A stretch of 45,158 bases of DNA, taken from contig JADLER010000192.1 in assembly GCA_020846025.1 (NCBI GenBank), positions 1 through 45,158 of the forward strand, given 5' to 3'. Source of the DNA: Bacteroidia bacterium (GTDB lineage Bacteria > Bacteroidota > Bacteroidia > B-17B0 > Aurantibacillaceae). Positions 40,677 to 45,158 of this stretch are shown here, one piece after another. The position numbers and the translations under genes are program-made. Position 1 is the stretch's first letter. Each line of letters starts with the position of its first letter. A model generated the notes under the pieces. That model worked only from the letters and a program-made list of their open reading frames with translations, made no database searches and was not told the DNA's origin.

Positions 40677-41216
40677 ATGCAGTCCATTGTCTTAAAAGAC
40701 AAAAGTTTTGTTCCATACATTACTGCCGAAACTATTTCGGAGCAAGTAAAAGTTATTGCCCAAAAAATAAATTCTGATTTGGTTAATGAAACGCCCTTAT
40801 TTTTAGTTGTGCTCAACGGTTCTTTTATGTTTGCGGCCGATTTACTAAAAGAAGTAACGATACCTTGTGAAATCTCTTTTATTAAATTAGCTTCGTATTA
40901 TGGAACTACAAGTTCGGGAGTTGTTACCGAAATGATAGGTTTAACTGAAGATGTGAAAGGTAGAACTGTAGTAATTATTGAAGATATCGTGGATACAGGG
41001 GTAACCCTAGAAAAATTAGTAACCTTGCTTACTAAAAAAGAAGTGAAACAAGTTAAAGTGGCATCATTCCTACTAAAGCCAGATGCATACAAAAAGAATA
41101 TAATTGTTGATTATGTGGGTATTAAAATACCTAATGATTTTGTAGTGGGTTATGGTTTAGATTATGACGGCTTAGGTAGAAACATGAAAGAAATATTTGT
41201 ACTAAACACTAAATAA
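40677..41216 (+). CDS. hpt: Hypoxanthine phosphoribosyltransferase
   Basis: A 179-residue purine salvage enzyme that makes IMP or GMP from hypoxanthine or guanine and PRPP. The PRPP-binding loop VVIIEDIVDTGVTLEKL (residues 98-114) is complete, as is the LVVLNGSFMFAADLLKE segment with the first flexible loop, and the base-binding VGIKIPNDFVVGYGLDYDGLGRNM near the C-terminus. Length is normal. First gene of the hpt-adk-obgE row, a gene order I recall as common in Bacteroidota. adk follows 28 bp later and is very likely co-transcribed. Confidence 0.96.
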   Translation: MQSIVLKDKSFVPYITAETISEQVKVIAQKINSDLVNETPLFLVVLNGSFMFAADLLKEVTIPCEISFIKLASYYGTTSSGVVTEMIGLTEDVKGRTVVIIEDIVDTGVTLEKLVTLLTKKEVKQVKVASFLLKPDAYKKNIIVDYVGIKIPNDFVVGYGLDYDGLGRNMKEIFVLNTK

Positions 41217-41244: not shown

Positions 41245-42384
41245 ATGAGTAATATGTTAAACATCGTTTTATTTGGCCCTCCAGGCGCCGGAAAAGGAAC
41301 TCAATCTGAAAAGTTAATTCAAAAGTACGGCTTAGTACATTTATCTACAGGAGACATTTTACGAAGCGAAATAGCACGAGGTACTAAATTAGGAATGGAA
41401 GCAAAAGCCATTATGGATAGAGGTGATTTAGTAAGTGATGATATTGTAATCGGCATGATAGAATCAAAATTGGATGCTAATCCACATGCCGCAGGTTTTA
41501 TTTTTGATGGCTTTCCTCGCACGCAAGCTCAAGCAATAGCTTTAGACGATCTATTACAAAAAAAGGGGACTGCGATTAGTGCTATGTTGGCACTCGAAGT
41601 AAATAACGAAGAGTTAGTAAAACGCTTATTATTAAGAGGAAAAGACTCAGGGCGTGCTGATGATCAAAACGAAGATATTATCCGTAATCGTGTGAATGAA
41701 TATAACAATAAAACATTGCCACTTAAGAAGTATTACTCAGAACAAGCTAAATTCCATTCTATTAATGGCATTGGAACAATAGAAGAAATATTTAACGAGT
41801 TGGTTAATCGTATTGTTTTTGTAACAGCCGAAATTGAACTCACCATGTTAGAAAATGATATTGAACATTTAGATATGACGATTAATGATTTTGATGTAGC
41901 GACAGAGATTTCAAAAGAGCTACAACAAGATATTGAGGAAGTAAGAAAAACAACTACAAAATCAGTCCCTGCAAAGAAAAACAATAAAGCAAAAGCTGTT
42001 AAAAAAGTCACGAAAAAAGCGAGTGTAAAAAAAGTAGCAGCTAAAAAGGGAAGTAAAAAAGCAGCTAAACCCACTAAAAAAGTTGTAGTTAAGAAGGCAA
42101 AGAAAGTAGTTACTAAAAAGAAAGCTACACCTAAAAAGAAGGCTGCTGCAAAAAAAGTAGTAAAAAAAGCACTGAAAAAAGTAACAAAGAAAGTAGCTAC
42201 TAAGAAGAAAGTAGCACCTAAGAAAGTAGTAAGAAAAATAGCTGCTAAGAAAAAACCAACTGCGAAAAAAGTAGTGAAGAAAGCTGCGAAAAAAATTACT
42301 AAGAAAGTAGTTAAAAAAGTAGCACCTAAAAAACCAGTTAAGAAAGTGGTAGCTAAAAAAACAAATAAGAAAAAGAAGAAGTAA
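41245..42384 (+). CDS. adk: Adenylate kinase with a long lysine-rich, histone-H1-like C-terminal tail
   Basis: A 379-residue fusion. Residues 1-193 are a complete short-LID adenylate kinase (ATP + AMP = 2 ADP): P-loop GPPGAGKGTQ (11-20), HLSTGDILRSEI, the FDGFPRT motif (88-93) and the LID RGKDSGRADDQNEDIIRNRV without zinc Cys. Residues 194-235 are an acidic linker (LENDIEHLDMTINDFD, SKELQQDIEEV). Residues 241-379 are a tail of Lys/Ala/Val/Pro/Thr in KKVxKKAxKK-type repeats, 65 of 139 residues being Lys, very like histone H1 or bacterial Hc1-type DNA-binding tails. Most adenylate kinases end near residue 190-215. The tail may bind nucleic acid and place the enzyme on the nucleoid or ribosomes; that is inference. 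The single frame is continuous, with no stop between the parts. Confidence 0.93.
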   Translation: MSNMLNIVLFGPPGAGKGTQSEKLIQKYGLVHLSTGDILRSEIARGTKLGMEAKAIMDRGDLVSDDIVIGMIESKLDANPHAAGFIFDGFPRTQAQAIALDDLLQKKGTAISAMLALEVNNEELVKRLLLRGKDSGRADDQNEDIIRNRVNEYNNKTLPLKKYYSEQAKFHSINGIGTIEEIFNELVNRIVFVTAEIELTMLENDIEHLDMTINDFDVATEISKELQQDIEEVRKTTTKSVPAKKNNKAKAVKKVTKKASVKKVAAKKGSKKAAKPTKKVVVKKAKKVVTKKKATPKKKAAAKKVVKKALKKVTKKVATKKKVAPKKVVRKIAAKKKPTAKKVVKKAAKKITKKVVKKVAPKKPVKKVVAKKTNKKKKK

Positions 42385-42456
42385 TTATTGAGTAAAGAGT
42401 TTGAACAAAGCGTTTTTTTAAAAATGGACACTTAAGCTCTTAAAACATACAAGGTA

Positions 42457-43461
42457 GTGGATAATAATTTTGTTGATTACGTAAGAATTTGTTGCAGAAG
42501 TGGAAAGGGCGGTAAGGGCTCTACACACCTTCATCGAGATAAACTAACAGCCTTTGGTGGTCCTGATGGTGGTGATGGTGGACGTGGAGGTCATATAATT
42601 TTGCGTGGCAACAAACAATTTTGGACACTTATTCATTTAAAATATCGAAAGCATGTAATTGCTGAGGCAGGTGGAGATGGAGGTTCATCTAATCGCAGTG
42701 GTAAAGAAGGAAAGGATGAAATTTTAGATGTACCTCTTGGAACGATAGCTCGTGATTTAGAAACCGATGAGGTATTGTGCGAAATAACAGAAGATGGGCA
42801 GGAGTTTATTTTATTGGCAGGAGGACAAGGTGGAAAAGGAAATGCTCATTTTAAATCTTCAACCAATCAAACGCCTCGCTATTCCCAGCCAGGCGAAGAA
42901 GGAAAAGAAGAATGGAAGGTTTTGGAACTAAAAGTATTGGCTGATGTTGGTTTAGTTGGATTTCCAAATGCAGGAAAATCAACACTACTTTCAGTAGTAT
43001 CGGCTGCTAAACCTCAAATTGCTAATTATCCATTTACTACCTTAACACCAAACCTAGGAATTGTACCTTACCACGATTTTAAAAGTTTTGTAATGGCTGA
43101 TATTCCAGGTATTATAGAAGGTGCGAGTGAAGGTAAGGGTTTAGGTATTCGTTTTTTACGTCATATCGAACGAAACTCATCGTTATTGTTTATGGTAAGT
43201 TGCCAAAGTGATAATATTTACGAAGAATATAAAATTCTGTTAAACGAACTCAAACAATATAATCCTGAATTGTTAGATAAGGAAAGGATTTTAGCCATTA
43301 CCAAATGCGACACCATAGATGATGAGCTCATAGAAGAGTTAGAAAAAGATTTGAAAAAACGAATGAAAGGTAAATTTAAGATCCCTTACATTTTTATATC
43401 TGCTCAAAACGGTTACAATATTTCTAAATTAAAAGATATGTTGTGGCAACAACTAAATTAA
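42457..43461 (+). CDS. obgE: GTPase Obg/CgtA
   Basis: A 334-residue ribosome-assembly and stress GTPase. The glycine-rich Obg fold fills residues 1-158 ([52 protein letters not shown]). The G domain follows with G1 GFPNAGKST (168-176), switch [14 protein letters not shown]3 [17 protein letters not shown] and G4-like TKCD. The protein ends soon after, lacking the C-terminal OCT domain, as usual for Bacteroidota. Start is GTG 42457: the ATG at 42424 in the same frame is closed by a stop three codons later. Third gene of hpt-adk-obgE. Confidence 0.96.
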
Positions 43462-43474
43462 AAACAGTAAATAA

Positions 43475-43948
43475 CTACTGCTTTGATTTCTCAATCATCA
43501 TCCCAAAATCCATAACTAATGGTAAAGGATTCATCCTCATACCTTGTTCAAATGTAAAAATATATTTCCCACTCTCTGGAAACATCATATTTTTCTTTAG
43601 TGGAATTTGATTATCCCAAATATCACCCGCACCATCACCAGTCCATCTTCCTTTCTTATCAGCCAAAATACATTCTAAAGTATCTACCACTTTTTTACCA
43701 CTAGGATAAGTTGTCGTTAGAAACACATATAAGTTACTAAAAGGATAACTATCAGCATGTCTAACAGTTAAATACACGTCATGGTATATCTTATTATCAG
43801 TGATATCAACAGTATAAATTAATTTATGCTTCATATCCCAGCCCTCTTCTGGAATTGTTTGATATTCACTAAACACCACATTTTTATTGCAAGAAGCAAG
43901 CAATAAAACACTTATGAATATGATCAAATTATGATGGATTGCCTTCAT
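43475..43948 (-). CDS. gldH: Gliding motility lipoprotein GldH
   Basis: A 157-residue lipoprotein (lipobox LLASC, Cys20). The central part YPFSNLYVFLTTTYPSG, DTLECILADKKGRWTGDGAGDIWDNQIPLKK and YIFTFEQGMRMNPLP is the GldH signature. GldH is needed for gliding motility in Flavobacterium johnsoniae and belongs to the set of Gld lipoproteins linked to the T9SS machinery. Its start overlaps the end of ricT by 20 bp, so the two are coupled. Presence of gldH agrees with the two T9SS-sorted enzymes in the window; it does not by itself prove gliding. Confidence 0.93.
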   Translation of the reverse strand: MKAIHHNLIIFISVLLLASCNKNVVFSEYQTIPEEGWDMKHKLIYTVDITDNKIYHDVYLTVRHADSYPFSNLYVFLTTTYPSGKKVVDTLECILADKKGRWTGDGAGDIWDNQIPLKKNMMFPESGKYIFTFEQGMRMNPLPLVMDFGMMIEKSKQ

Positions 43949-45158
43949 TACCTTTTGGTTTATGTTTTTTATGATGCTGTTTATGTTGATTAGAATGTTG
44001 TGGTGGCTGTTTTATTTGATTATGGTTTGGTGTATGCTGTTGTGATTTTTGAGGCGCATGATGTTGTGTCTTCTTTTGATGTGGAGGTGGTGCTGCTGAA
44101 CCAGTTTGTGCTTGTTTGTTATCTGATTTATTGTGTTGTTGTTTCTTTTGATTTTGATGTTTAGGCTTCGACGACTTCTTTTTATGGTCAAAACGAGTTA
44201 GTGCATCTTGCCCTACCACATTTTCGTAATCTGGTTTTTTTACTGATGTTGCCTCTTTAATTTGTTTTGCTTCTAACAAATCCTCAGGTTTTTGGTTTTG
44301 AGCATTCATACTCAAAATATCTTTAGTACGCTCAATAGATAAAGGAATAAAAACATCGGGTTCGGTTGTATAACTCCACCAAATGATGCGTTTAAAAATA
44401 TCGGTCTTCTGATGAAATGCAACCCCTTTTTCAGTTTGTAATTTTTTATTATCAATTTCTGGAAATTCTTTTAAAGCATCTTGATAACTATCTAATTCAA
44501 AATTTAAGCAACATTTTAATTTACCACATTGTCCTGCTAACTTTAAAGGATTAAGCGACAGCTGTTGGTAACGAGCAGCTGAAGTAGAAACTGTTCTAAA
44601 ATCACTTAACCATGTAGAACAACACAATTCTCTACCACACGAGCCAATAGCACCCAGTCGGGCCGCTTCTTGCCTAGCTCCAATTTGGCGCATGTCAATT
44701 CTTATCTTAAACTCCTCCGCCATAACTTTTATCAACTCTCTAAAATCTACACGACCATCAGCCGTATAATAAAATATAGCTTTACTTTTATCGCCTTGAT
44801 ATTCCACATCACTAATCTTCATTTGTAATCCCAGTCTAAGTGCCAAGGTTCTTGATTTAAACATAGTTTCAACTTCTAAGGCTTGTGCCTCTCGCCACTT
44901 ATCAATATCTTGTTGTTTTGCTTTACGGTAAATCTTTTTAAACTCAGTAGTATTGGGATTTACACCTTTCTTTTTTAATTGAAGCTTCACCAGTTCGCCA
45001 GTAATGGAGATTACTCCAATGTCATGACCAGGAGATGCCTCAGTAGCTACCACGTCGCCAACATATAATGGTAAACTATTAACATTCTTATAAAATTCTT
45101 TTCTCGAATTTTTGAATCTAATTTCCACAATATCGCAAGGATCTTGTCCGTTTGGAAG
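43929..45158 (-). CDS. ricT: RicT/YaaT (PSP1 domain) protein with His/Gln/Lys-rich tail (5' end cut by window edge)
   Basis: The frame runs to the right edge: upstream of the GTG at 45128 it continues as LPNGQDPCDI, so the true start is outside and this is a 5' partial. The PSP1 domain contains VGDVVATEASPGHDIGVISITGE, FYYTADGRVDFRELIKVMAEEF, IGARQEAARLGAIGSCGRELCC and GQCGKLKCCLNFELDSY; the Cys pairs match the iron-sulfur-binding RicT/YaaT family, which in Bacillus acts with RicA and RicF in RNA maturation and phosphorelay control. The last 85 residues are low complexity, rich in His, Gln, Lys, Asn and Pro (for example QKKTQHHAPQKSQQH). Function of the tail unknown. Coupled to gldH by a 20-bp overlap. 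Confidence 0.9.
   Translation of the reverse strand, partial: LPNGQDPCDIVEIRFKNSRKEFYKNVNSLPLYVGDVVATEASPGHDIGVISITGELVKLQLKKKGVNPNTTEFKKIYRKAKQQDIDKWREAQALEVETMFKSRTLALRLGLQMKISDVEYQGDKSKAIFYYTADGRVDFRELIKVMAEEFKIRIDMRQIGARQEAARLGAIGSCGRELCCSTWLSDFRTVSTSAARYQQLSLNPLKLAGQCGKLKCCLNFELDSYQDALKEFPEIDNKKLQTEKGVAFHQKTDIFKRIIWWSYTTEPDVFIPLSIERTKDILSMNAQNQKPEDLLEAKQIKEATSVKKPDYENVVGQDALTRFDHKKKSSKPKHQNQKKQQHNKSDNKQAQTGSAAPPPHQKKTQHHAPQKSQQHTPNHNQIKQPPQHSNQHKQHHKKHKPKGNEGNPS

Follow-up and report, generated by a model that had tools for sequence, protein, structure and literature searches.

Long lysine-rich, histone H1-like C-terminal tails on unrelated N-terminal parts are described for the Pseudomonas proteins AlgP and PhaF; the H1-like KPAA domain of AlgP is required for granule spacing, the protein localises to polyphosphate granules, and for the KPAA domain of PhaF a role in tethering granules to the nucleoid is proposed (PMC9239181). 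Lysine-rich extensions are also described for housekeeping proteins. The H1-like lysine repeats of actinobacterial topoisomerase I (TopA) give processivity and hold the enzyme on DNA, and acidic terminal residues beside these repeats possibly bind the N-terminal part (review, PMC7398561), while the lysine-rich regions of the Pseudomonas proteins EngA and SrmB, with nine Lys per 20-residue stretch each, bind polyphosphate (PMC12077175). A case from Bacteroidota is the PgFur of Porphyromonas gingivalis, in which the loss of a C-terminal K-rich extension gives the gene-deletion phenotype; PgFur without the lysine-rich region still binds the hmu promoter, and next to no interaction of the truncated protein with DNA was noticed while it was purified (PMC6613475). 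The chlamydial Hc2 has lysine-rich repeats of varying number, but it is a free-standing DNA-binding protein, not the tail of an enzyme (PMC2848022), and the TcADKn of Trypanosoma cruzi places an adenylate kinase in the compartment of the chromosome, but as a eukaryotic isoform (PMC3567042). All of these reports are cited from excerpts.

Adenylate kinase (Adk) is usually regarded as a soluble, diffusible enzyme. The NCBIfam model NF010381 (PRK13808), an Adk model of 335 positions with about 140 positions past the core, suggests that Adk proteins with long tails are already on record; a search of open-licence PMC text found no lysine-tailed adenylate kinase among the matches listed, which is no proof of absence.

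The window, i.e., the whole 45,158-nucleotide stretch of DNA analysed here, encodes an adenylate kinase with a lysine-rich tail that resembles the tails listed above in part. Like AlgP and PhaF, it carries a long K-rich, H1-like C-terminal tail, but this tail contains 0 KPAA motifs and 5% Pro, is built of KK-pair units such as KK(A/V)xKK, and is attached to a metabolic enzyme. Topoisomerase I shares with the window protein the lysine repeats on a housekeeping enzyme, but its substrate is DNA, whereas Adk has no nucleic-acid substrate. EngA and SrmB are likewise housekeeping proteins with lysine-rich extensions; these are different proteins, and the regions are shorter than the tail in the window. 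The extension of PgFur is about 13 residues long and, unlike that of the window protein, belongs to a DNA-binding regulator. The window protein scored 198 bits with NF010381, far below the cut-off of 426, and 190 bits without its extension; for the 11 other models present in both lists, the extension lowered the score instead. A search for members of NF010381/PRK13808 covered 240 genomes from the class to which G370, a genome reached through a Sulfitobacter contig, belongs, and no protein exceeded the cut-off; the 30 best loci of this search encode tail-less Adk of 192–204 residues.

The adk frame and its three parts

The adk frame (41245–42384, forward strand) starts with ATG and, according to the frame list and its translation, runs through 379 codons with zero internal stops; it comprises a kinase core, an acidic segment of 52 residues and a 139-residue part in which 65 residues are Lys. 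An earlier note had read this gene as adk continued in frame into a histone-H1-like K-rich tail. The uninterrupted frame and the presence of the tail throughout the family confirm this reading, and the counts given there for the tail (139 residues, 65 Lys) are exact. The host assembly (3.24 Mb, 241 contigs), which belongs to an uncultured Bacteroidota lineage, is probably a MAG; the nearest named match is a contig of the MAG KLAP24, with 100% (rounded) identity over Adk residues 1–200. An assembly or frameshift artefact is ruled out, because 75 of the 77 complete adk frames of the window's family, which come from separate assemblies, end in a tail. Over the tail region, both other frames of the forward strand carry many stops, and the antisense frame at 41733–42431 (reverse strand) was rejected as a mere consequence of the lysine codons, which make it rich in Phe and Leu. 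The neighbouring genes, which are not part of the finding, are hpt upstream (phosphoribosyltransferase, 40677–41216, forward strand, Pfam Pribosyltran) and obg downstream (42457–43461, forward strand, Pfam GTP1_OBG and synteny).

The first part (residues 1–188; 41245–41808) is, judging by the family score, an adenylate kinase of the short-LID bacterial type. Pfam ADK (PF00406) covers residues 9–168 with 173 bits (cut-off 26.8), and NCBIfam NF001381 gives 236 bits for residues 1–188 (234 in another scan), above its cut-off of 187. A structure search with the model of the protein returned ordinary adenylate kinases, the best being the T. thermophilus Adk (PDB code 3cm0) with a TM-score of 0.91, normalised by target length. 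In an alignment of 32 sequences, the columns that we take to be the P-loop, DGFPRT and RG...GR.DD motifs are invariant or nearly so. The calculated pI is 5.7 for the core alone and rises to 10.2 in the full-length protein.

The second part (residues 189–240; 41809–41964, forward strand) contains 13 acidic and 5 basic residues. AlphaFold modelling, based on the 32-sequence alignment, prolonged the last helix of the kinase to residue 218 and placed a second helix at residues 224–237; the mean pLDDT was 92 for residues 191–200, 81 for residues 201–210 and 58–71 beyond, so that the confidence of the predicted helix past residue 210 is low to moderate. A heptad seam (F192, A195, L199, L202, I206, L209, I213, F216) is hydrophobic in 95–100% of 42 sequences from four genera, with Ala scored as hydrophobic and Tyr as the two exceptions at position 216, and the acidic residues between the heptad positions are invariant or nearly invariant in the same set. 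A consensus of the AExxLTxLExDIEHLDLTIxDF type was found in 63 of the 75 tailed Adk of the family (genera g1, g3, g6, g8 and g9); other linkers are present in genera g2, g5, g7 and g10. The segment was detected in 64 of the 87 family genomes and, barring two matches at E about 0.05, only on Adk, and its dN/dS is 0.00–0.06 in 11 of 14 close pairs, where defined. A search of PDB sequences with this linker gave no convincing match (best E 0.19). The acidic stretch described in the earlier note is present, not as a loose linker but as a predicted helix that is conserved. In place of the fold-back of the acidic part onto the tail that the earlier note had considered, the modelling suggests that it extends the last helix of the kinase and, at falling confidence, that the part with the heptad seam is more like a stalk or an oligomerisation element.

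The third part, the lysine-rich tail (residues 241–379 and the stop codon; 41965–42384, forward strand), has 65 Lys and 1 Arg among its 139 residues and zero Asp or Glu, which amounts to a net charge of +66. It contains 8–11 Lys per 20 residues, four KKK runs and a terminal KKKKK. It has the features of an H1-CTD-like tail, namely length, low complexity, richness in K, a scarcity of acids and regular spacing of the lysines. The likeness to H1 and AlgP tails proposed earlier is supported by composition and spacing, and the tail is truly fused and maintained across the family. The protein is not a linker histone H1: there is no globular winged-helix domain, and the only Pfam matches above cut-offs are ADK and AAA-type P-loop families.

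Conservation of the tail and its spread

An Adk match was obtained in 80 of the 87 family genomes searched, and the 80 sequences read comprise 77 complete frames and three cut by contig ends. The earlier note had pointed to related Adk proteins as the place to look for long C-terminal tails, and the 75 tailed frames out of 77 span nine of the ten genera. The tailed proteins are 307–490 residues long; beyond residue 245 they have a median of 138 residues, a median net charge of +58 and a Lys share of 32–52%, and in 68 of the 75 the final three residues are all K or R. The two complete tail-less Adk of the family (L161, L162) are the only two complete frames of genus g4, whose kinase is the most divergent in the family (47–48% identity) and whose placement in the family follows the grouping of the search collection. 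In one member of this genus (G044, L228), the Adk is tail-less, yet a DksA-type protein keeps a K-rich extension.

The lysines are regularly spaced. In 52 family sequences, K-K pairs are commoner at lags 1, 4, 5, 8 and 9 and rarer at lags 2, 3, 6 and 7, and the longest K run, counted with the last five residues dropped, does not exceed three (mean 2.75), versus about five in shuffles. The tail of the window protein follows the same pattern, more weakly at lags 1, 6 and 8; the unit of the tail is a lysine doublet, one per 4–5 residues. In comparison with the nearest relative (G086), Lys columns are unchanged in 66 of 67 cases and other columns in 48 of 74, and the dN/dS is about 0.00 for the core, 0.02 for the acidic segment and 0.15 for the tail. 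Tail dN/dS lies at 0.13–0.30 in eight of the 14 closest pairs examined, dS being saturated in the remaining six. Purifying selection acts on the tail lysines.

Compared with synonymous shuffles, 65 tailed genes from within and outside the family have fewer A7 runs than expected in each of the three phases (z-scores −11, −14 and −9), while A6G is not clearly avoided (z-scores +1.5, −2.0 and −1.8). Programmed frameshifting was considered when the avoidance of A_AAA_AAA was first seen, but the phase control, in which A7 proved to be avoided in every phase, led to its rejection; avoidance in all phases points to frame keeping in general, not to a ribosomal signal. It can reflect either mutational or ribosomal slippage, and the frame is protected in both cases.

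At the level of the class, 296 evenly drawn genomes were searched, and 294 had an Adk match; open-frame lengths are known for the best matches only, hence no class-wide tail rate is given. Outside the family, K-rich Adk tails were found in at least 10 further genomes of five families, namely f20 (six genomes), f6, f11, f36 and f42, and among 20 frames fetched mostly for their apparent length eight were K-tailed and 12 were not. Genus g29 of family f20 is mixed, with six tailed and four tail-less Adk among 10 sequences. At least 10 changes of the tail trait are needed on a tree built from 117 selected kinase cores, in which support is weak in places, the rows are non-random and gain is inseparable from loss; the fewest changes on a quick tree of 123 sequences are nine. 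The linkers of tailed Adk in the five other families differ from that of the window, and these sequence differences suggest that the tail was gained several times.

Other long adk frames of the class have a different make-up. In family f33, the hpt frame runs stop-free into adk, which predicts an HPRT–adenylate kinase fusion (L145 and L148, both read); two more loci (L151, L153) have a long hpt–adk frame, judging from frame length only. The long adk frames of family f9 are upstream open frames, and those of family f8 have a different C-terminal part. In one genome (G093, L152), Adk continues in frame into a different C-terminal part of about 330 residues, with a total length of 518.

Lysine-rich extensions on other proteins

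With the tail DNA as query, the host's own genome yielded 47 matches at E values up to 10, including the tail itself; of the others seven were read, and six of these sit in K-rich frames. The tail protein as a query against 12 genomes was insensitive, probably owing to bias correction, and did not recover the DksA-type protein of the own genome, K-rich though it is; searching with the DNA worked better. The extensions found in this genome are C-terminal in topoisomerase I (L242) and N-terminal in HemD, a uroporphyrinogen-III synthase (L238/L253, contig C218), and in a DksA-type zinc-finger protein (L226, contig C93), where an acidic stretch follows. A START_2 protein (L235, contig C94) has a K-rich N-terminal half, ribosomal protein bL21 (L236) a short C-terminal K/A tail, and a 138-residue protein with no Pfam match (L237, contig C202) is K-rich at both ends. 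A free-standing 55-residue protein (L234, contig C57, 13299–13426) is nearly all tail; it consists of KKAAPKKAAKK-like repeats with 72% DNA identity to a part of the Adk tail.

Two of these extensions recur in the family. The main copy of the DksA-type protein carries a K-rich extension in 26 of the 26 family genomes in which it was read (one cut by a contig end), and a second, short copy in one genome (G014) is without it. The general plan of the DksA/TraR-type proteins (L226, L202–L221, L227–L232) is an N-terminal extension of about 180–280 residues, K/P/A-rich and then strongly acidic, followed by the zinc finger. A K-rich N-terminus was also seen on DksA-type proteins in two f20 genomes (L104, L108), next to a gene that by its sequence looks like ileS. 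Each of the 13 family genomes in the class draw has the N-terminal extension of HemD, which measures approximately 85–160 residues, with 28–38% Lys in 12 genomes and 19% in what is left of the thirteenth, truncated at a contig end; at the other 17 loci returned from the class draw, no such extension was found (at most 21 residues). Twelve further long HemD frames were fetched: a K-rich N-terminal extension is present in four of four genomes of family f27, C-terminal extensions, some of them Lys-rich judging by the last 30 residues, occur in families f6, f28 (two) and f43, and four of the frames are without a lysine-rich part. The HemD loci with N-terminal extensions, in the family and in f27 together, are L238/L253, L254–L264, L278 and L283–L286. 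The K-rich tail is not a speciality of Adk; it is a habit of the lineage on several unrelated housekeeping proteins.

Possible roles of the tail

Because the tail is H1/AlgP-like, truly fused to the kinase and kept across the family, a polyanion-binding role may sensibly be inferred from the sequence and by analogy. Most likely, it would tether the protein to polyanions in general, with the nucleoid and perhaps polyphosphate as targets, in the manner of AlgP, PhaF and actinobacterial TopA, and the other tailed proteins of the own genome fit such a tether better than a regulator specific to Adk or a ribosome factor; DNA, RNA and polyphosphate are indistinguishable by sequence as ligands of the tail. 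In our view, the tail is probably a disordered polycation tethering Adk to intracellular polyanions, most likely the nucleoid, with the acidic helix as a stalk and the whole arrangement as a habit of the lineage. The evenly spaced lysine pairs would grip the nucleoid (DNA and nascent RNA) through many weak contacts, and the helix would hold the tail away from the active site; it may also pair two kinases or bind a partner. The presumed benefit is a balancing of ATP, ADP and AMP local to the nucleoid. A selected, family-wide H1-type tail implies that the location of nucleotide balancing matters in these cells. Against the tether reading, the cells can do without the tail, since it is absent in genus g4 and variable within genus g29 of family f20, and PgFur binds the hmu promoter without its lysine-rich region. 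Close tailed and tail-less relatives offer a natural experiment.

Perhaps, although this is a tentative and rather doubtful suggestion, the H1-like tails constitute a shared address, by which Adk, HemD, the DksA-type protein, TopA, the START-like protein and bL21 are gathered in one polyanion-rich compartment and the helix oligomerises Adk. The compartment would be the nucleoid or a polyphosphate–nucleoid condensate, and the lysine doublets would do the gathering. If so, nucleotide balance, transcription control, supercoiling and haem synthesis would be co-located and tunable by salt, acetylation or polyphosphate, and the coiled-coil-like helix would make Adk oligomeric, so that several tails act jointly. 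In the class, six families have tailed Adk, and the own genome has tails on HemD, the DksA-type protein and TopA as well; together, these provide a testable case for polycation tails as a modular bacterial address.

A specific coupling to polyphosphate, in which the tail binds polyphosphate and sets Adk at granules where polyphosphate kinases make or use ADP and ATP, seems unlikely. It draws on the localisation of the H1-like-tailed AlgP at polyphosphate granules (PMC9239181, excerpt), on the nine Lys per 20 residues in the polyphosphate-binding regions of EngA and SrmB (PMC12077175, excerpt), set beside 8–11 in the window tail, and on ATP regeneration by Adk together with polyphosphate:AMP phosphotransferase, as given in the title of a reference cited in PMC8776046. 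However, the TopA, DksA-type and bL21 tails of the own genome point to nucleic acids, and the protein was rejected as a PASK polyphosphate target: under the composition rule quoted in the excerpted text of PMC12077175 (D, E, S or K making up 75% of a stretch of 20 residues), the best stretch reaches 0.60 versus 0.75, and four of 52 family members conform to the rule.

A tether to RNA, by which the tail keeps Adk on ribosomes or rRNA, appears more unlikely still. Polycations bind RNA, as is generally known, and the own genome encodes bL21 with its short K/A tail, but bL21 is the only ribosomal protein among the other tailed proteins found there. The earlier note had seen a ribosome link in the neighbouring obg. 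Wherever the loci are long enough, obg lies 3' of adk on the same strand whether adk is tailed or tail-less (tail-less: L041, L042, L044–L048), so the adjacency is uninformative, and with tails on TopA, the DksA-type protein, HemD, the START-like protein and others in the own genome, this link is not supported.

It is also conceivable, with a small probability, that the tail is a near-neutral low-complexity expansion, which arose in an AT-rich genome when repeats slipped and is tolerated with no specific role. The patchy distribution in the class (at least 10 changes, or nine on the quick tree), the similar tails on unrelated proteins and the fast divergence of the tail sequence would agree with this. 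The conserved Lys columns, the tail dN/dS where it is defined and the regular K spacing speak against it, as do the avoidance of A7 runs by 9 to 14 SD in every phase and the tail on 75 of 77 frames, in most of them preceded by a conserved helix.

It is hardly credible that the tail is made apart as a small histone-like protein, via an internal start at 41845 (the first base of the interval given in the earlier note) or via frameshifting: an ATG is present there and slippery-looking A-rich heptamers occur within the tails, but the ATG is not a conserved second start, since many relatives have A, Q, N, S, G or H in place of this Met, A7 is avoided in every phase, and both other frames close soon.

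The window also contains a gene for a PSP1-domain protein (43929–45128, reverse strand) with a long His/Gln/Lys-rich C-terminal tail.
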